This document shows positions 28,228-63,624 of a stretch of DNA of 64,000 nucleotides, in pieces. The notes below the pieces were generated by a model. It worked only from the letters and a program-made list of their open reading frames with translations, was not told where the DNA came from and made no database searches. The position numbers and the translations under genes are program-made. The stretch covers positions 8,432,001 to 8,496,000 of the forward strand of contig NC_003279.8 of NCBI RefSeq assembly GCF_000002985.6, given 5' to 3'. The stretch's first letter is position 1; each line of letters starts with the position of its first letter. Origin of the DNA: Caenorhabditis elegans. Taxonomy: Eukaryota; Nematoda; Chromadorea; Rhabditida; Rhabditidae.

Positions 28228-30795
28228 ATGACCGAAGCCGAAGACTTTGCTCAACTGCTTCAAAAGCTTCAGAATGCGAGTCCAGCTCTTCCAGAAGGCA
28301 CATCATCTACTCCAACACCATCCTCGTCAACTGGTCTATTGCCAAATGGAAAGAAGACAAAGGGACGCGTCAAGATTAAGATGGAGTATATCAATAATAA
28401 ACTCAGACGTTACACTACTTTCAGCAAAAGAAAAACGGGTATTATGAAGAAGGTGAGTTAAAGATTCTGATTTAACTTTTAGTTTAATTTGTAATGTACC
28501 CTTCAGAAATAATTAAAGTTCCACCTAGAAACCTCTATTAATTGAGTGTATGGAATTAGAATACTATGGAAATTTTTAAAAAGTTTGAATGCACTATAGA
28601 AATATTAAAAATTAAAGCTGGATAGTCAACTAAAATATCCTGACTCACCTATTTAGTTGCGGCAGGTTCAAATCCTAATAATATTTACTGTTATAATTAA
28701 ATTGTACACATCGTAGAAAACTTCTTATTTTTTGGATTTTCAAACCTCAAGAACTGGGATAGGCAAAACCTGAGTAATCGCCACTTTCTGAATTTAACTG
28801 ATACAATTTCAAGTTTTATTTAAAATGTTTCTCTATTGTAGCTATGATATTTATCCATTTTAGTAGAATAGTACCAATTTTGAAATTTCGAAAACTTTCC
28901 TCTATGGCGATGCTTCATCTCTGAGACCTCTTTTTGCATTAAAAAATACAAAATATAAACTTCTGCATCACTTTTGCAATAATACTTTTGTTTCAGGCAT
29001 TCGAACTATCTACACTAACGGGAACCCAAGTAATGCTTCTAGTCGCATCAGAAACTGGTCATGTCTACACATATGCAACTCCAAAACTTCAACCAATGAT
29101 TTCATCAGATACTGGAAAAGCCATGATCCAATCGTGCCTTAATGCTCCTGGTGGAGATGGATCAGATGTTCAGCCAAGTCGTACCGAGTTCACATTTGAT
29201 TCTGGAAATGGTGGAAACGGAATGCGAAAACGGAAAATGTTGAGCGATGTTATGTCAGCCGAGTCGAGCAACAACAGCCCATCGGTGAGTTTAGGAATCG
29301 CTCTTCCTATTACAACGCGCGTCAGCCGCGGGACGAACCGATTGAAGAAGAAGAAACGGCACTAAAATGGCCTCAAATATCCTTCGGGAAGGAGTGGAGC
29401 CATCGGGAGACGGAGAACCCTACGGGAAGGGAAAAAGGGGGTCCCGTGTTATAGTGTAATGCGTTTGGTGTGTGTACGACTTTGGTTACATCTCACACTA
29501 ATGGACAGATAGAAAGAGAGAGACTTCTGATGACTAACTGATTGCTCACTTTACGTTTTAACATAAATAGAATGATAGGATAATTGAGTGAGGGAAAGTA
29601 AACAATTCTAAATAATTGCAGAGTGAATATAGATACCTGGGAGTTAACACAAAAAATGGTAAACGTAATGATTCTCCTTTAATGGGGCTTATCATTTGTG
29701 GGTTATCTTCCATACCTAATAGGTGTGGAAGAATGGTATTACCTATGCCATTTGAAAGTAACCCTTTTCTTATGCTTGCAAAAAAGTAGCACCAGAGGAA
29801 CATTTGAACTAGAAAAAAGTAGTTCTAAAAAACGTTTAGTTAATTTTTTCCAAGTCCATTTTTCCAGTTTTTTTTGTTTATAGAAGCAGCGTAAAGAAAT
29901 TCTGGATTCTTGATTTTTTTTTCAAAAAAAAACCTAAAACTTTTTGATTCGTAACATTTTCAGTAAAAAATTGAAAATATACAAATGGTGTCAATAATAT
30001 TTTATGTTAAAAAGAGAGATAGAGGCGGAGCCTATTATTGATTTTTGCTTTGTTCCCCTACATTATTCTATTGAAAATAATGAGAAAATTTTAATGAAAT
30101 AAATTTGGAAAAATAGGTTCCCTGGTTTTTTAGTATTTTCCAATCAATTCCCGAGACTTCCAAATGAATGTTTAAAACTTTACGCCAATTGATTTCCAGA
30201 TGCCAAACTTCACTCCATTTCTCGCCCCATCAATGGCTCCACTGTTCTCCACATTTGGAGAGGATGATTATAATAATGATGAAAGTGGCGATGATTCGGA
30301 TTCAGAAGAAGCTTCAAGTGATATCAAGGAAGAATATCAAGGATCGCCTACAATGGTTAAGCAAGAAACAACAGAAATTGATAGTGTAACGGCTTCATTA
30401 CAACAAAGAATAAAAGAAGCAATGAGGCAGGCTGCATCAAATAAGCAGGCAATCAAAAAGGCAAAAATTACACCTCCCTCCTCAAATATGAACAATGCGG
30501 CATTTTTGAATCCGTTTCTTCTTCAAGGTAAATTTATTTTGACATTGATCATATTCAAAACTGTTCGAGAAAGTATGAGAGTAATACAAATTTGAAAATT
30601 CATCTTGATAGTTTTTGTGGAAAAAAAAAACTTAATAAATTAAAATTTTCAGGCGGTGCAAATGCTTCAAACCTTCTAGCAACAGCTGCAAGAAAAGGTG
30701 ACGATGCAGGAAGCTTAACATCAAATCCATTTCTTTCAATGGGTCTGAACTTGCAACAGCTCATCGAATCAGCAGCCATTGCATCAAATGAATAA
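28228..30795 (+). CDS. unc-120: SRF-type MADS-box transcription factor of muscle
   Basis: Four exons (28228-28452, 28997-29284, 30200-30527, 30653-30795) encode 327 residues. The MADS box covers about residues 43-100: GRVKIKMEYINNKLRRYTTF, SKRKTGIMKKAFELSTLTGT and QVMLLVASETGHVYTYATPK are near-identical to animal serum response factor and include the SRF-type dimer region after the core. DNA target expected: CArG boxes. The C-terminal two thirds are Ser/Asp-rich and likely the activation region; a basic RKRKM cluster at about residue 153 may add to nuclear import. In worms UNC-120 acts with HLH-1 and HND-1 to specify body-wall muscle. The start is set by MTEAEDF right after an acceptor (TTTCAG at 28219-28224). 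Poly(A) signal AATAAA is at 30997-31002. Identification is firm. Confidence 0.98.
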
Positions 30796-31355: not shown

Positions 31356-31818
31356 TTAAAGATCTTCTCTCAAGAAATCCATGGTTCTATAAATGTATTC
31401 ATCATCAATCACATCTTCCTCATCATCTTCAAAATCATCGCAATCTTCGTCGTCATCATCATCTTCCTTCTCGTTGATGACAGAACCTCTTGCATCCTGT
31501 TCAGGACTATCAAATTGGTCTGAAACATTCAACACTTACATAATTCTTGCAATTTTCAAATATCATTACTTTATTTTATCCTTAAATCTCTATTAAAGAC
31601 TACCGATACACTTGGAACATTTGGATAATGCGGAGCAGACAACACTCAAGGATAGCAGTTGCGCCCGGATATCTTTTTATTTTATTAACTGGAGTCGCGA
31701 GTCAAAACGAAAACTTTGTAGACTCACCGGACGCTAATTCGTTGGTTTCTCCATTAATACTGATGACATTCAGAATAATAACTATAAACGTTAAGAGTAT
31801 GATGAAATGAATTCTCAT
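31356..31818 (-). CDS. small secreted acidic protein (84 residues)
   Basis: Exon 1 (31818-31728) encodes MRIHFIILLTFIVIILNVIS followed by INGETNELAS, a classical signal peptide. Exon 2 (31519-31356) begins DQFDSPEQDARGSVINEKED and continues with a run of Asp and Glu before ending YIYRTMDFLREDL. The join is G|AC with good GT/AG signals (GTGAGT donor, TTTCAG acceptor). The mature chain is about 60 residues with one Cys and a strongly acidic core, so it might bind calcium or cations or be an extracellular propeptide. The plus-strand poly-Ser open frame at 31393-31596 is its shadow. No family is recognised. Its start lies 146 bases from the stop of the pseudo-protease gene upstream on the same strand, so co-transcription is possible. 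Confidence 0.7.
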
Positions 31819-31964: not shown

Positions 31965-33761
31965 TTATTTCATAAAAATAAGAAAAATGAAAATAAATTC
32001 AAACACACCAAACATTGCTTTGTAGACTGTTCTTTCCGTATTTTTAGCCATCATACTCTTCAAAAAATAATCATTGGAATCCTCTGGATATGAGAGAGCT
32101 TCATTCACTTCATCAATTTTTCCTTCGTCGATTGGAAGTTCAATGTAGTTGGAGTTGGAAGTTGTATTCCTGTTCTTACTAGGATTAGTATTAACATTCG
32201 GGGAATTGGGATCGGAGCTGTTTTGTACAATTTGTTGTGTAGTAGCCTCCGGCTGGTTACTTGAAGATGAAGCTTCGGACGATGGTCTACCAACTGGGCC
32301 TTTTGTACAAACTCCAGAGAATTCACAGATTTCATTGTTATACTTTCTCAAATCAAAGTAATATTCATATTGATTTGAATTGTATCCAGCTGGAAATTCA
32401 ACGAACTTAAATGTGGAGTTGAACAATCGCTCAGATTTTTTGAAAACTCAATAATGAAAGTTATTTTATATATTAAATTAAATTATTAGGTTGGTCGAAA
32501 AGTCTTTGCAAAATTTGTACTTTTCTTCATTTCTCAGCGTTAATTCATTTTTTTCTGATTCTGTTTTTTTATTTGCATAGTACGTAATGTGCATGTTTAA
32601 TATATTTAAAAAAACTTTTGGGTGCTGTTCAAAATGACCGAGAATTTGCTCGCCGAACGTCACGCCCTCCGATGGGTTTTTCTGTACGAGTTCCCCCAAA
32701 TCTGCAATTGCAACGAAGCTCGTCGTAACATGTGTGCAGTGTTAGGCAAGAACTCTGTCACCTTTAATACCATGAAGTTTTGGTTCGAAAAGTTCACGAA
32801 AAAGAACTACGATCTCGATGATAAACCAAGATAAGATCGCTCTCGTTTGAATATCGACGAGGATATTTCGAGAGCCCTGGAAGATGATCCAAGAGCAACG
32901 AACCGCGAACTTTCTGCGACTCTCAAGCATCCCCAAAAAACCATCATCAACCATCTCCACGAAACCGGAAGGGTAGAAAAGTTCGGTCAACTCGTTCCTC
33001 ACAATTTGCCCGATTCTCAGAAAAATTGTTTTGTGACCTCTCTCTTTCGCTGCTCACTAGGAAACGAACAACGGACTGGGTTAAGGATATCATTACTGGA
33101 AATGATAAATGGGTATTGTATGTTAGCCATACCAGGAAAAAAGAGTGGGTCCCGGTCGAGGAAACCGCGACACCTGACCTCAAATTAGAACTTCACGGAA
33201 AAAAGTGCTTCTCTCAATTGGGCGGGACAGTAAGGGTGTCATTTCCAGAGAGCTTCTTCCAGACGTTGCTACAATCAACGCTGGCCTATACTGCATTTAA
33301 TTGGAAAAGATGGTCCATGCTCATCGATTACATCGCCCTAGAGGATCAAAGTTGTTGCTGCTCCATGACAACGCAAGACCGTATACAACTTTTAAGACCC
33401 GCCAGAAGCTCCAGACAGTCGGAATCCAAATTTTGTCTTACTCATCGTATTCGCCGGGCTTGGCTCCTACTGACTACCATCTGTTCCGCTCACTCCAGAA
33501 TCACCTTGCCGGGCAGAAGTTTCATGATCGAAAGGTCGTCGAAACGGGGTTGGACGACTTCTTTGCCTCCTAATCGCAGGAGTTCTAGGCGGAGGGTACT
33601 GTTCAACTTCCGTTGTGTTGGCAAGAAGTCATAGGCATTAATGGTAAATATATTACCCATTGAATCTTGTTCGCTTTGAAAAAATACTACTTCCAAAAAA
33701 AAATCAAAATTTTGCAAAGACTTTTCGACCAACCTAATAATTAATAATTAAAGAATTATAA

Positions 33762-33813
<52 letters not shown>

Positions 33814-35224
33814 TCTGTCTACTGTGACTTGTATTTTGAAACGGAATAAAAACTTACTAGTGGACTTGATCCCAATAGCCGTAACTTTATCATCATACAA
33901 CTTCACCAAAGGTCCCCCTCGATCTTGCATTGCTTGGTACTTATCAGTGCATATCCAACCATCATCGTGTAAGTTTTTAATCTAAAACTCCTATCGTAGA
34001 TAGTACAAAACGCGTTTCCTAGAATGTTTTTAAAAAAAACTTTTAAAATTCGAAGAAAAATTACTTTTAGTGGTTTAAATTGTAGTGTTGAATACGGATT
34101 TTTGGTGGATGTAGCATGGCCATATAGAAATACATCATCGTTTGTGTAGACATTGGCACTTACTGAAATTTGTTATTATGTTGTTTAAAATTCTCAAATA
34201 TTCGAATATTACCATATGGGATACATGGAACTGATATATTTTTCACATTTTCTTCGAGTTCAATCAAAACCATAAGAGACATTTTGGAAAAATCATCATA
34301 TCTCTTCTTAACATTGATAAGCACTGCCTGAAAAATTTTTCATTTTGAATAATTGAATGAGTTTAGCTACAATGAAATTACTTTTTTTGGTCTCAAAATA
34401 CATTGACCAGATGAGCAGTTTCCTGGAATGACTTTCATATTTTTCGTCACTTTCTCGGGAACCATCGCACTTCTGAAAGTGAGAAAATAGGATTCCATTA
34501 CGAAATTTTTCACAAAAAAAATCGAAGTAGGCAAGATTTAAGGCAAGCTAATAACATCATATTTTCCTTTTTAAATCCACTGTTTTAGCTAAACAAATGC
34601 ATGAAACTAATTGAATTTCTAATAAGATTAAAATTAAAGACAATGTTAAGCATTCCACGAATGCATCCGAGTTTTTGATCTTTCGTGTCTGTCAAGTTTA
34701 GTTTTTACCGAAACTTCTAAAATTCAAAGTCTCCAAAAGCAAAATAAAGAAATTTTAGAAAAAAAACGAACGTTGTGTTTCTAATGTATTCAAGATTCTT
34801 AAAATACACAGTATCATTGTAATTGGTTCTCCAGGCACCGTTTTCGATCATTATAAAATATACAGATGTAAGAACATGTCTCGGAGAAATAAAGAATCCA
34901 GCTACTGATACATTATCTGCTTGATTGTCTGTATTAGCATTTTTTTGTTAAATTTTCAGCAAACATATATAACTCACTATCTAGTTCCATTTTGGCCAGC
35001 CAAAAATTTCCTGGATTTGGCGCATTTTCTCCATCTGTATTATTTTCTTTTTCAGCTGAAAATTGAGCAATAATTTGGATAAAAAACAGGTGGAGCAACT
35101 CACGAAAATCTTGATTTCCACATTTTTCTAATCGATCTTTATTCTCATCAGTGGTCAGCGATTTCCATTTCACTGTCACAACTATGCTTATGAATGAAAA
35201 TACAATAATCGATAGAAATTTCAT
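31965..35224 (-). CDS. trypsin-fold (DUF316-like) protein lacking the catalytic triad, paralogue A
   Basis: Eight exons: 35224-35104, 35055-34978, 34928-34772, 34472-34382, 34327-34213, 34162-34065, 33981-33858, 32389-31965; 402 residues. Signal peptide MKFLSIIVFSFISIVVTV. Family landmarks: FFISPRHVLTSVYF at the place of the trypsin TAAHC (His absent), MSLMVLIELEENVKNISVPC at the DIALL position (Asp replaced), and ICTDKYQAMQDRGGPLVKLY at the GDSGGP position (Ser replaced by Arg). The last exon adds a Ser/Asn/Thr-rich linker and a hydrophobic C-terminus, so the product is probably membrane-bound. Intron 7 holds a mariner element (32486-33737) and a TA repeat. Relation to nematode DUF316 (peptidase S1-like) is inferred from the motif order. 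The frame is intact throughout. Confidence 0.82.
32486..33737 (+). mobile_element. decayed mariner (Tc1/mariner) transposon
   Basis: A 1252-base element bounded by TA on both sides. The left end TTAGGTTGGTCGAAAAGTCT and TTGCAAAATTTG is repeated inverted at 33705-33737 almost without change. Between the ends lies a mariner transposase: MTENLLAERHALRWVFLYEF at the start, NRELSATL and KTIINHLHETGRVEKFG (helix-turn-helix), KDIITGNDKWVLYVSHTRKK, then HDNARPYTTFKTRQKLQT and YSPGLAPTDYHLF with the D34D spacing of mariner. It is dead: an in-frame stop at 32833-32835, frame shifts near 33015-33030 and 33200-33210, another stop near 33297, and Asp of the first catalytic motif (usually GDEKW) reads Asn. 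It lies antisense in intron 7 of paralogue A. Confidence 0.93.
33762..33810. repeat. AC/TA dinucleotide repeat
   Basis: An AC run passes into about 19 TA units in the same intron as the mariner element, just outside its right end. A shorter TA run sits at 36094-36110 in the matching intron of paralogue B. Confidence 0.9.
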
Positions 35225-35487
35225 TGTTAACAATCGATCAAAGATAGGAACTAAATCGCTAAATTGTTTAAAAATTTATATTGTGGAAATTGAGGAATAC
35301 CCGGAATAGGAATACATAGCTTTAAAAAAGTAATAGAGCACGCGGAAAACATTTAAATTTTGTAATTTGTATTTAGCATTCAGTAAAGTTTAGCAATACA
35401 GAATAAGAAAATGTTCACTTAAATATTTTACGTGTAATCGTTTAATTATGATAACTGAGGATTCAACCAAATATTACCAGAAAAACT

Positions 35488-37581
35488 TTATTCCACACGC
35501 ATCACAAAAAAGAAAATAAACTCAAACACAAGAAATATTGCTTCGTAGAATGTTCTTTCCGTATTTTTTGACACCATGCTGTTCAAAAAATATTCATTGG
35601 AATCTTCTGGATACATGCGTTCTTTATACACATCATCATTTTTCCCATCATCAATTGGAAGTTCAATGTAATCGGAGTTTGCCATTTTGTTTTTGTGTTT
35701 ACTAGAGTTTTTATTGTTTCGGAAATCGGTGGCCGGACTGCTTTGTACAATTTCATCTGTGGTAGTCACCGGTTGATTACTTGAAGATGGAGTTTCGCTT
35801 GATGGTATTTCCACTGGATCACTTGGACAAACACCAGAGAATGCACAGATTTCATTGTTATACCTTCTCAAATCGAAATAATATTCATAAAAGTCTTTCC
35901 TGTATCCAGCTGAAAATTAAACTACCTTGTTTCTTCATGAACATTACTTAAAAGAATATGTGTATACAATGTTGTCCACTTTCCTTTAACATAGTGGTTG
36001 GAAATTAGTTATCAAATTTTCATGTTTACATGTTCGATCAATAGATCAATACATGTTCGATCAATAGATGCACAAATGTTGACAAATTTGTGATATATAT
36101 ATATATATATGTATGTGCATTCAGGTCTCTGTGACACGGACAAGTTGACAAAGTAGGACGTTCCAGTCATTTCTTCCTACGCTAATTTCAAATAACTCAC
36201 TTGTTGACTTGAGACCAATAACCGTAACTTTATCATCATACAATTTCACCAAAGGTTCCCCTCGATCTTGCATTTTTTGATATTTATTAGTGCATATCCA
36301 TTTGCGCGAATTCTTCTTCACTTCGCGAACCTAAAATATGATGACACACAATTATGAATGACTGGGAGGGAAATTACCTTTAGTGGGAGAAATTGAAGCG
36401 TTGAAGTTACATTTTTGGTTGTGTCATAGCCGTATAGAAATACATCGTATTCATCAATGACCTCAGAATGTTCTAAATTAATTATTTTAACTTTCCAAAC
36501 ATCATAATAATGATTCTCTATTACTACGTCCAACACATGGAAACGAGATATTCTTAACGTTTTCTTCAAGTTCAATTAAAACCAATGCGAACATATTGTC
36601 AAAATCTACCTCCTGTTCTTTAACATTGATTAGTACCGCCTGAAAATGCTTGATGATGTTTGTAAAATGAGCTATGGAATTACTTTTTTTGGTTTCAAAT
36701 AACATTGACTAGATGAGCAGTTTCCTGGGATCACCTTCATATTTTTTGTCACTTCTTCGGGAATTATTGCGCTTCTGCAAATATGGGAGTTTTCGAGAAC
36801 ATGATTCGATTACGAAATTCTTCAAAGTAGGCGTAGGTAATCTTTGAAGATGGAGTAATGTGTCTGGGTGTTTTCAATGTAAAGAGCAAAAAAGTGCCCA
36901 CATTAATGAATTTCGTAATGCAACTTCTCAAAAAACAATTTCAAAATTTCTTTATGGTGGAAACGTGGCTAAACTTGGCGTTTAGCTAAACGGCCATTTT
37001 CAAAATGTTGAACCGCCATAAAAATACTTTTCATTACGAGATTCGTTAATTTGAGCACATTTTTGATCTATACGCTACACCAGTTTCAAGCAAATCTTGT
37101 TGTAATTTGTCGCAAACAATTTTCAGATAAAAAACGAACAATGTGTCTTTTATGTATTCAAGAGTTTTAAAAACTTGTTCCTTGTTGTAATTGATTCTCC
37201 AATTACGGGCTCCCGTCAATATAGAAAATGCAGATGTTAAAACATGTCTTGGAGAAATGAAGAATCCAGCTACTGATACCGCGTTCGATGTATCATCTGA
37301 GTTTAGCATTATGTATTTTCAAATAGATTATATCTAACTCTCTATTGACATCTTGACCAGCCAGAAATTTCCAGGATTTGGTACACTTCCTCCATCTGTA
37401 TGATTTTCTTTTTCAGCTGTAAATGGAGCATTAATTTGAAAGAAAAACAAAGAAACTTACGAAAATCTTGATTACCACATTTTTCCAGTCGTTCTGTATT
37501 TTCCACAACGGTTAGCAACTTTCACGCAACTGATATGATCACGTTAATCAATGCAAATACAATAATCGATAGAAATTTCAT
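35488..37581 (-). pseudogene. trypsin-fold (DUF316-like) paralogue B with an in-frame stop in exon 1
   Basis: Exons parallel paralogue A one for one: 37581-37461, 37416-37339, 37296-37140, 36774-36684, 36639-36525, 36472-36378, 36330-36201, 35909-35488; the summed length (1209) is identical. Signal peptide MKFLSIIVFALINVIISVA is followed directly by TGA as codon 20, where A has TGG. After that the frame is fully open to the stop, so only one change breaks it. Catalytic sites are lost as in A: ISPRHVLTSAF, FALVLIELEENV, MQDRGEPLVKLY (Gly also replaced by Glu). The C-terminus again ends in a hydrophobic segment (EFIFFFVMRVE). It may be a very recent pseudogene, or be translated from an alternative start or by readthrough. 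Confidence 0.72.
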
Positions 37582-37903
37582 TGTTGATCAATTGATCTAA
37601 ACTGAAAACAGAAACTGAACGGTTTTTTTAAAGAATTAAGGTCATGTAGGCAGAAAATTTTCACGCATAAAACAATTCTAACAAATAAAACTTTGAACTG
37701 TTTTTGTCGAAAATTTTTCAAACCGGCAATTTTCTATGAAGCTCCTGATTTTCGAAAGTATGTATTTATAACATGTTAAAAAATTTTATATAAGCTATAG
37801 CGGATACTTTATTTTCTGGAAGATGATCACTTTTCGAGCTCCATGTGAATTTGAACGTTTTGAAGGTTTTGTTGAACAATTTATTAAAACGTCCATTTTC
37901 AGT
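37582..37903. other. spacer between paralogues B and C
   Basis: AT-rich, no coding content. It must contain the promoter of B and the 3' end of C. Confidence 0.55.
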
Positions 37904-39852
37904 TCACAATAGGTACTCCAAGAAAGCTAATCCAAATATCAAGATGATATAAAAATTGGAACTTTGCCTCCTATAATCCAAAATCTCAGGTTCTTCAATT
38001 GTATTCACATAATCATCATCCTGTGTTTCTTTCACATATTTGTCATTGGCATTTGGTGTATGTCCGATTATTCTCATTTTTCTTCTACAAATCCCCATTA
38101 TCTTGCACATTTCGTCCATATATTCGTGAACCAAATGAAATCGAAACAGTTTCAGAGTCTCGGTGCTTTCTGAATAATTTCTTTAAACTATAATAGTTTG
38201 AAATTGCAATTACCTAAAACTCCAATTCCAATAAGTCGATCAATATCAAATGAGTCGGGTTTAACTAACGGAGCTCCTCGAATGAATATGCATGATTCAC
38301 CATTTGTGAAAAAAAAAATGCTTCATTGGTCATTTCTCATTTCCTCACCTACAAAAATAGGTAACAAACATTAAGATATAATAGTTATTAATTCTTACCG
38401 AATCGACAAAGGTGTGATCTCTCTCGTTTCCAAACACTCCTGTTCGATCCAGGCGTATTTTATTTTTGTCTGGAAATCAATTCAAATATTGAATTTCATT
38501 TTTCGTTACCTTTTGGAAGACATACAACTGGTACAGACATAACACTTCGATTCACAACTAATAGCGTCAAAAATCCAACTTGGCTAGTTACGAACTCACA
38601 GTATCGGAGGAAATGTATCTGAAAAAACAGAAAAATTATAAATAATACACAATTCCAAAAACACTCTACTTCTTCGACCTTTTTCCATTGTTGTCTGCTG
38701 TCCAAAACACGGAAATTCATACCATTAGTATGATAGTTTGCACTTCTGTCTGTTTCACAAATTGAGCTATTGACAGGCGTTTCGTCAGACTTCCATGTCC
38801 ACTTTCCTGACTCTTTCTCCTGCGATGAATCTGACTTTGATCTTTCTGTATGCTTCGACTTTCTGAAATCGATGCAGATTTTTTCAAGCTGACACTTCGA
38901 AATCCGAAAAATCTGACGCATTTGCCACTTATTAAAATGTTTTATTATTTCTACGCCCCAACACTTTCGCTTCAAAATTAAAAAAAAACAAACAGGTTTA
39001 AAAAACCGCAGTAATTTTTCAAAATCTAACTATTCCCTAAAAATCATAATTTTAAAAAAAATATCACGATCCTCACAGTATTTTGCTGTCCAGTTTCCAA
39101 TAAAGTTACGCTTATGATATAACTAAAAGCTCTCATTTTCTGATTTAAAAATCCGCTTTTATTAATATAAATTTTTTTAACGTATAATTAGGTAATTAGG
39201 TATAATTAGGCAAGAAGGTTTAGGGTTTTTTAAACGTAGACGTAGGTTGCCTTGCAGGCAGTTTTGAGAATTCTGCCTACTCACTTCCATTTTATGAACC
39301 AAGATGATGATGTGAGAACATGTGTTTGAGAAATGAACACTGCATTTGTTGGTGGAATTTCTAGAAAAAATATTCGTGTTGATACTCTTTGTGTGTGCCT
39401 TTAAAAACGCGATTAATGACTAACCAGTAGTTATTTCACGTTTCTTCGTAGGTGTTTCAGTTACAGCTGTTCCTGTAGAAACTGTCGAATTATCAGATGT
39501 TTTACTAGAATCTGATGAAGTGTTAACTGAAACTTGTGTGCTGGTTTGTGTAGTGAGTGGACTCTTATCAATCGGAGTAGTAGTGTGTACTTGAGAATAT
39601 CTGGATTTTGGTGGTTTCTTCATTTCAGACAGTTTGGTTTCGTATGTATCGTGAGTATATAATGATGCAAGCCAAAGTGGTTCAGCTGGAATTAGATGAT
39701 TTCATTCATCTTTAATTCATCATTAAAAACTCACCCATCGGTTCACCACAACTACCATATCGAATTTCATTTTCTCGATGACTCAGACGAAATTTCGAAT
39801 CATAGCAAATAGTTTCGAGAAGCAAAGTGATTAAGATTATTAAAAATTTCAT
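37904..39852 (-). CDS. trypsin-fold (DUF316-like) paralogue C, divergent and with a possible frame break
   Basis: Exons found: 39852-39735 (signal peptide MKFLIILITLLLETICYDS), 39685-39425 (Thr/Ser-rich insert), 39360-39285 (VFISQTHVLTSSSWF, the His-loop position, His lost), 38862-38670 (Lys/Ser-rich), 38618-38510, 38469-38399, about 38320-38214 (ESCIFIRGAPLVKP, Ser of the active site replaced by Arg), 38169-37904 (ends in YIILIFGLAFLEYLL, membrane-like). It shares the architecture of A and B but is much diverged. The seventh exon does not read: the only workable acceptors give a stop, and the run of ten T at 38309-38318 would have to be nine for the frame to hold. It may be a pseudogene, a sequencing or polymorphic indel, or have unusual splicing. 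Confidence 0.6.
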
Positions 39853-55642: not shown

Positions 55643-58600
55643 ATGCCTGCTAATGAGCTTTTCGGAGATTCTGATCCGGAAGGGGATGAAATTTTTGAAA
55701 GAGTTCGAAAGGTATTCAATTATCTGTGAAGGTAAATAGTAATAAACACATTTTCAGGTGCAACCAAAGTCGATCAATGTAACTGAGAATCAAAAGGTAG
55801 ACCCTATGCGTAAAGTCAAAATCGAGCTTCAAGCTGTTTTGGTTGCGGAAAAAATACCAATTAGTACAGAAGAAATCAGACGGCGTCTGCTGTGAGTTTC
55901 TTTTTGCGAAAAATAACGACACTACCTTTGTTTCAGGGATTCTTATGGTGCATGTCCTGATCCGAAAAGATATAACTGTTCGACTTTGGACGATCTTCTT
56001 CAAGCATGCTCGGAGTCAATTGTACACACTTTCGGCCGTGATGGAATACACCGATATGGGCCAAGAACTACTGAAGCCAACCAAGATATTATCGAAATGG
56101 TCCAGCAGCAGTCGAGCTCAAAACGCCCGGCCCGCTCGTTTTTAGGTTCAGGAGCTACTAATAACCTCAGCACTCATGGGTCATCATTCCGGGCATTCAG
56201 AGGTCCGTATGCGTCAGAGGAAATCGCTAAATCGAGAGGAACACCTGAGCAGTATGTGGAAGTTTAAAAAATCGTTGTCAATGATTTGTTTTTTAGATTC
56301 AAAGCAAGACACAAGTTGGGTCCAGCAAAAACAATTTCTCGCGTAAAAAACCTTGCAGAGGTTTTGAAAGAATATGCTGATGAGATAGGAGTTTCACATC
56401 CTGATGAGCCAAATCGCAAGATTGTAACACTGGCAGCTCTTGCCAATAAGTTCAAACAGTTGTATTGTTTACCAGCATGGGGAAAGAACATATCGGAAAG
56501 GTAATTCACTTGCGCAAAAGTATTGTTGCGCTTTTATAGTCAGTTCTAAATTGAATGTTTTGATTTCAGTGAACTATACATTCAGCTCAATGTTCCTCCT
56601 TTCAACGAATATCTGCATTTCTGGCGTCTTAGCGAAAAAGGTGACATCTTCGTTGATTGTATTGATCGTGACAATGCCGATCCAACTCAAAAAAGTGAAC
56701 AAAATCCGTCAGCAGATGTTTCTATTCAATCTGAATCTTTTGGCGGTAAAAGTGATCAAATGATGCTTTCCAATAGTAATTTATTTTACAGGTTCAGCTT
56801 CAGCGTTTGAACAATCTGTAGTATCCGCTCCTTCAACTATTAGAGATCAAACATCCGATTCCTTGTAAGGGCACATTTTGATCACTGTTTTTCAGATGTT
56901 ATTTATCAATTTTCAGTGACGGGTTCAACAGTTTCGAAGTGCCCCCAGAAAATGGAAGCAAAGATTCAAAAATTTTCAACTCGAATCAAGAAAGCATCGA
57001 TGACTATCCAGGAAATGCTATATCTCGAGATCGAACCGCTGATATGACCGACATTGCATTGCGCTTTGGAACTGTCTCTGTGGCAAGCCAACAATGTCCG
57101 GTATCTTCGTCACTCGTTCCACAAAATGGAATTCTTCGTCAGTCGCGTGCTCAAGAAGACGACAGTGAGAAAACATTTTCGCTGCTAATGAACAAATATT
57201 GAATTTACAGACAACACATCTATTCTAACTATTCAATCATCTCGTCGCAATCATTCAGTGCTTCGTCATCGTACGATCAAGCCTCGCAATCCAACACAAA
57301 ATCTTGCTGAAGTCGTAAAAACTCATGGTAGCATTCCTTATGAAGCGCTTTCGGATTGTGATAAGATTATCGTCGACTTAGGAAAGAACATTTTCAAAGT
57401 TTATGCAACTCAACCTGGAGAAATGATGGTCCGCCTTTGTGATCCCCACGTTGACACGACTACATTGCCACTCCTAGAGAACAATCTTCGGGATCCTGTC
57501 GAGTCTGATTTACGTTGGATGACACTGGGAAATTCCCATATCAAGAAACAATCTGTTAAAGTGGTCAAGCCTGCAATGTTTATTGCGCCACGCGGATTTT
57601 TGTTGATTTTAAAAGATGAAGAACGTGAAGAAATGGACGTTGAAAAGGTTGCTACTATGGGGAATATATTGCGGGCCGTGATGGTAGCGCCTATTGTGGA
57701 GCTCCAGCGTGAAACCGTCCGCACGGGATCAGCTGCAGTCTACGTTTATCGACAAGGAGCGGAGGTGCGCTATTATAGAGTGTTGATAGTTGGACAAGCT
57801 AAACAAGATGGTGAAGTGTTGGTTTTGTTGGCTGATGTCGATGATCAATATTTCGTGGATGTACATCTATCTCATTTGTTCCCGATTCCGGAAGAAGCCA
57901 GCTTCAAACACTTTCCCTCGAATGTTGTATTCGCAACATTGCATGGAGTACTGGGTTTGACGCTTTCTGAGCAGGATGTGATGTTCGAAAACATTGATAA
58001 TGATGATACAAAACGATTTGTGGGTGGATATTTTCATGGAAACGATGACGTGAGTTTACAGATGGTTGTTTAGAAATTTGTTTAATGTTTGCAGAGAATT
58101 CTTAACATCGATATGGTTTGGAAAAATGAGCGTGGTCAATTTGAGTGGCTTTCACAAATTGTCAAGAGACGTGGAGCAGTTACTTCGTCCGATGCCAACA
58201 TCATTCACTTTCCACATTCTGCACTCGATGTGATAAAGTCTGTTGGACCAGATTGTTCGGTGTGCTTTGTCGACTATTCAGTTCGTGATGAATCTGCAAC
58301 ATCTTCATTGATGGAATCGACTAGAATTGTTCATGATAGTCGTGGTTTGTGTCAAAATCGTTAGATTTTAAAATCATTTTCGTTTCAGAATCTATGACAA
58401 CTACTTATGTTGGTGAGATGCCAAGCCCAATTATCGAAGAAATCGATGCAACATCTTCATTTGACCCAAAACTCTTGAATCTCCATTCATTGTTCGATAA
58501 GTTAATCGAGGAACAGAATGTTACTATGATTGTGGGGATGTTCCAATTCGTTCGAAGTTTGAAGGATTTATTCGGCGATAACAATGAATGGGAACGCTTG

Positions 58601-58648: not shown

Positions 58649-63624
<4,976 letters not shown>

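Follow-up and report, generated by a model that had tools for sequence, protein, structure and literature searches.

The closest described relatives of the locus analysed here are the S1 trypsin-like peptidases (PF00089), the nematode family PF03761 (DUF316, 'Nematode trypsin-6-like') and the clip-domain serine-protease homologues of arthropods, which carry a non-catalytic serine-protease scaffold according to excerpts of PMC6901238. In the excerpted text of a survey of worm secreted proteins, 12 DUF316 genes are counted, ten with a signal peptide and one induced in at least one infection (PMC3534327), and in the portions of PMC3219595 seen try-6 is named solely as one entry among listed RNAi targets. 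The open-access literature searched (one library) gave no description of family-wide loss of the catalytic triad combined with a frequent hydrophobic C-terminal end. The cluster reported below is an ordinary corner of this known family: of its three genes one is an intact pseudo-trypsin gene, another carries a nonsense codon and the third is doubtful. The loss of the triad at the level of the family is a more interesting statement than the cluster itself.

The window, that is the whole stretch of 64,000 nucleotides of Caenorhabditis elegans DNA that was analysed, runs from C1:8432001 to 8496000 and contains three gene units, A, B and C, arranged in tandem on the minus strand between positions 31965 and 39852; C is separated from B by 322 bases, and B from A by 263. 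A and B score 156.7 and 154.8 bits, respectively, against PF03761, above the cut-off of 21.2, and match nearly the whole of its 282 positions (2–282 for residues 6–285 of A; 19–282 for B, searched as the sequence from the residue after its stop). C departs from the family in staying under the curated cut-off (17.0 bits for exons 1–6, and no PF03761 match for exons 7–8), and B in its nonsense codon. Thus, of the three trypsin-fold proteins proposed in the preliminary description, three units with sequences related to trypsin are indeed present, but only A reads as an intact gene.

The loop ISPRHVLTS and the motif GGPLV at the serine site are shared with the S1 peptidases (PF00089), and B matches that profile weakly (E 0.013, 15.8 of 20.6 bits), whereas A, devoid of both triad and activation motif, has no PF00089 match at E ≤ 1; PF03761 is the sole Pfam match of A at this threshold, so that a clip domain is not seen either. 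A profile of eight family members, two of them triad-bearing, retrieved 471 PDB sequences at E ≤ 1, the best (1.8e-14) being a pro-phenoloxidase activating enzyme, and the 60 matches listed of the 471 are all serine proteases or complement factor B. The corresponding profile of four triad-less members (A, B, C4p and I_11743) found two sequences at E ≤ 10. Since its best E-value is 0.12, the predicted trypsin fold of A derives from family membership and not from its own sequence. Four cysteines (C35, C180, C279 and C285) are invariant in all eight members of the alignment made here, from which the C-x5-C pair closing the domain was defined; the pair also occurs in C, whose end reads CKIMGIC. 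C35 and C180 fall at the positions of chymotrypsin cysteines C1 and C122, which are joined by a disulfide bridge.

Gene A (31965–35224, minus strand, 398 aa) comprises a signal-peptide-like start, a PF03761 domain without the triad, a Ser/Thr/Asn-rich stalk and a hydrophobic C-terminus. Its reading frame is open through all eight exons (35224–35104, 35055–34978, 34916–34772, 34472–34382, 34327–34213, 34162–34065, 33981–33858 and 32389–31965), and every intron is of the GT-AG type. The N-terminus, judged by eye, is typical of a secreted protein, and eight N-glycosylation sequons are present. Intron 7 is 1468 bases long, compared with 291 in B, and harbours a mariner-like element (32486–33737, plus strand) with perfect 28-base inverted ends that is absent from the B intron. 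Across the genome the element was scored at 40 places (own copy included) out of 63 candidates; 34 of the 40 match end to end at 90–100% identity, and a 100% identical copy is given at one other place, C3:8203524.

When A, B and C were aligned with triad-bearing paralogues, the columns of His57, Asp102 and Ser195 were found to hold Tyr, Leu and Arg in A (Y86, L163 and R237), Phe, Ala and Arg in B, and Ser, Phe and Arg in C. All three catalytic residues are therefore missing from all three units, as had been claimed. The His loops read HVLTSVYF, HVLTSAFS and HVLTSSSW, and the histidine of RHVLTS, which stands six residues ahead of the catalytic column, was rejected as a catalytic residue: it is present in 23 of 24 family rows (Asn in I_11720), including the three triad-bearing rows, where it occurs alongside the real one. 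The loop thus lacks its catalytic His in A, B and C. At the Asp site the preliminary assignment of Ser or Ala is right for B, one column off for A and wrong for C. At the Ser site, arginine within RG[GEA]PLV is borne out in all three (QDRGGPLV in A, QDRGEPLV in B, IFIRGAPLV in C). A also has no zymogen-type K-[IV]-x-N-G start; by eye, it reads PEKENNTDGENAPNPGNFW where the triad-bearing paralogues have KVLNG, KIFNG and KVYNG.

The 24 rows comprise A, B and C together with 21 paralogous loci modelled with a purpose-written spliced aligner. The search covered the whole genome (100,286,401 bases in 7 contigs) and only the best candidates were scored, which makes the family count a minimum; 38 of 44 candidate rows were read, five N-terminal pieces and a row equal to B being left out. 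The triad is whole in three models (I_4402, I_6585 and I_6642), one (V_7440) retains Ser only, and the remaining 20 have lost all three residues, giving column counts of 3/24 for His, 3/24 for Asp and 4/24 for Ser, the Ser column being unsure for the I_1172x rows, I_11735, I_11745 and I_12725. The ends of the I_12725 and I_11270 models are of poor quality, the model of I_6642 omits the Cys after the His (the genomic frame reads IATHC), and in-frame stops occur in those of I_11722, I_12160 and B. The alignment with worm DUF316 sequences accordingly upholds the triad loss in A, B and C and shows that the loss is not particular to the cluster; being triad-less is a property that A and B share with most of their family. 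For a family named after trypsin this means that a peptidase label attached to its members would mislead. As separate observations, I_12160 (C1:12160771–12161322) looks like a pseudogene, and C4:16822887–16827948 holds a pair of almost identical PF03761 genes, inverted relative to each other, with Val in one and Ala in the other at the Ser site.

Our preferred reading, which we hold with roughly even confidence, is that A is a working non-enzymatic member of the family that binds a partner while tethered to the cell surface, that B is a silenced tandem copy and that C is an old copy, either decaying or evolving fast. Comparison of A and B (256 of 396 residues identical) gave dS 0.534, dN 0.238 and dN/dS 0.446 (bootstrap 0.32–0.61; Nei-Gojobori, 395 codons, the stop-bearing codon pair excluded), a ratio below the value near 1 of neutral evolution, which as a paralogue-pair measure reports past constraint on A and B jointly and not the present function of A. 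The ratio is similar in both parts of the protein, at 0.435 for the protease-like part and 0.456 for the tail; across 12 sliding 60-codon windows it varies between 0.15 and 0.93, and the 1.56 of the last 25 codons, with just 2.0 synonymous changes, warrants no further reading. Coding constraint on A and B persists even though A has lost the triad and the zymogen start; A is therefore probably functional yet non-enzymatic. The proposal that selection has maintained a non-enzymatic role thereby gains support for A, though not by the cluster-specific argument originally offered for it.

Gene B (35488–37581, minus strand) is a tandem duplicate of A with the same eight-exon structure. Its codon 20, just past the signal peptide, is an in-frame TGA (37522–37524) where A has TGG; this is the one premature stop in 1209 coding bases, which contain no frameshift. 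B has not outrun A, since the lengths of their protein branches are similar (0.24 and 0.27). B is a probable recent pseudogene or a null allele in the assembly, and the nonsense codon has probably silenced the copy recently. A stop at the corresponding place, between the end of the signal peptide, which it follows directly, and KLT, was also seen in the paralogue I_11722 (C1 about 11722900, minus strand), which has TAA; the shared site could be a coincidence, or could be of interest in wild isolates.

Gene unit C (37904–39852, minus strand) is very divergent, and a Ser/Thr-rich exon precedes its His loop. Exons 1–6 are bounded by GT-AG introns, two of them with weak donors. The candidate exon 7 with IRGAPLV (38214–38320, minus strand) has a poor acceptor, AATGAAG, as the sole one preceding it. 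The joined model matches the paralogue profile with an E-value of 1.6e-12; it is this hand-joined model that stands for C in the residue table and in the tree, where its branch length is 2.67. Because the RGAPLV exon is without a good acceptor, C is doubtful as a gene. It may represent an old copy, either in decay or changing very rapidly.

These features could also be read as decay of the whole cluster, with B and C as pseudogenes and A as the last copy, under weak constraint and without an important role. The stop behind the signal peptide of B, the poor acceptor, weak donors and long branch of C, and the in-frame stops in the paralogues I_11722 and I_12160 all agree with such a course. We nevertheless consider it rather unlikely, given that A is open across eight exons, that dN/dS between A and B is below 1 and that B carries its single stop without any frameshift.

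An improbable alternative is that B and C are functional and their structures have been misread, through a missed first exon, non-canonical splicing or read-through of the stop. In favour of this, constraint on the rest of B equals that on A, and the protein branch of B is not the longer one. One-intron first exons bypassing the B stop were enumerated starting at ATGs no higher than position 37900; this gave four in-frame candidates, all of which use the ATG at 37896, and their splice scores are 1.4, −1.2, −3.4 and −3.7. The best of these lies barely under the weakest intron of B (donor and acceptor sums are 1.9–8.5 in B and 3.3–8.5 in A), but by eye none of the four first exons has an obvious signal peptide. 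For C, seven of ten aligner runs keep the RGAPLV exon, one of them with an in-frame stop; the runs conflict with each other, and downstream of the better acceptor stops are met in all three frames (by eye).

The arginine at the Ser site had been taken, together with the loss of the same residues in all three units, as a sign of selection. Its codon is CGA in A (motif at 33904–33927, minus strand), in B (36247–36270, minus strand) and in C. Since A and B are duplicates, the arginine they share is most simply explained by one event. Arg is also found, encoded by CGT, on contig C3 (KGDRGGPLV, C3:7057916). In the tree, which has six open forks among 21 inner branches and in which C and I_12725 form long branches, A and B fall into a modestly supported group (82/87) with this C3 locus, I_11743 and the pair I_12157/I_12160, and the Ser column of these relatives reads Arg (C3), Thr (I_11743), Tyr (I_12157) and Asn (I_12160). 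Arginine thus appears to be recurrent or old, yet not fixed. With 20 of 24 models triad-less and Arg varying within the A/B clade, the argument from shared loss and a conserved arginine does not hold, and cluster-specific selection for Arg was rejected.

The best 17-residue Kyte-Doolittle means at the C-terminus are 2.12 in A (31971–32021, minus strand, one residue short of the C-terminus), 2.13 in B and 1.92 in C; the run in A is a putative membrane span or GPI-type signal. With tails read to the first in-frame stop, so that introns may hide or fake ends, and with a mean of at least 1.6 within three residues of the C-terminus as the criterion, nine of the 24 models have such an end: A, B, C, C4m, C4p, C3, I_11720, I_11724 and I_12157. 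By eye, the ends of C3, I_11720, I_11724 and I_12157 have the look of GPI signals. None of the three triad-bearing loci has a hydrophobic end; their tails comprise 2, 21 and 23 residues, the longest (I_6585) scoring 1.14. The hydrophobic run described at the outset is therefore real in all three units, but a membrane end gained in the cluster was rejected, as nine of the 24 models carry such ends.

That A, B and C are three selected binding or decoy receptors, possibly immune, in which Arg replaced Ser for the sake of function, would accord with the arginine in all three, the constraint on A and B and the hydrophobic ends, but is very improbable in view of the family-wide triad loss, the unfixed Arg in the A/B clade, the probable lack of intactness of B and C, and infection induction of one of the 12 DUF316 genes in the excerpted survey (PMC3534327), a count that gives no backing to a general role in the response to pathogens.

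Under the preferred reading of A as a surface-tethered binder, the protein would be secreted by means of its signal peptide, would keep a trypsin-like scaffold without triad or zymogen cleavage motif, and would stand on the Ser/Thr/Asn-rich stalk, with the hydrophobic C-terminus, possibly replaced by a GPI anchor, fixing it to the cell surface. The most likely role of A is that of a tethered serine-protease homologue which binds another protein, be it a protease, an inhibitor or a substrate, by analogy with the arthropod homologues described in the excerpts of PMC6901238. A shares with them the non-catalytic scaffold; it differs in having no visible clip domain and in possessing a stalk and a hydrophobic end.

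The contrast between three triad-bearing loci without a hydrophobic end and nine triad-less ones with it suggests a testable model, that of an enzyme family turning into a surface binding family. More tentatively, and as a possibility that we judge to be on the unlikely side, most of the family in this nematode (20 of the 24 modelled loci) would consist of tandemly duplicated, rapidly turning over non-enzymatic homologues that provide a binding repertoire, many of which would be anchored to the cell surface by mucin-like stalks, while the few members with a triad would be possible enzymes; A would then be an intact example, and B and C snapshots of the turnover.

Elsewhere in the window, an ORF near 28943 is presumably MADS-box-like and one near 60126 CDC5-like, and a Tudor-like ORF at 57192 would fit LOTR-1/D1081.7, the cosmid D1081 being our assumption. 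No published gene name could be assigned to A, B or C from the open-access literature searched with D1081 gene names and PF03761/try-6 terms. D1081.5 (WBGene00008383) is listed with a 62% paralogue, WBGene00018841, in the excerpted PMC10576830, and the distant number of that paralogue suggests that D1081.5 is neither A nor B. Finally, small minus-strand ORFs at 31356–31818, starting about 146 bases past the end of A, open with a hydrophobic stretch (MRIHFIILL...), close with a strongly acidic one and are possibly a further small secreted gene.
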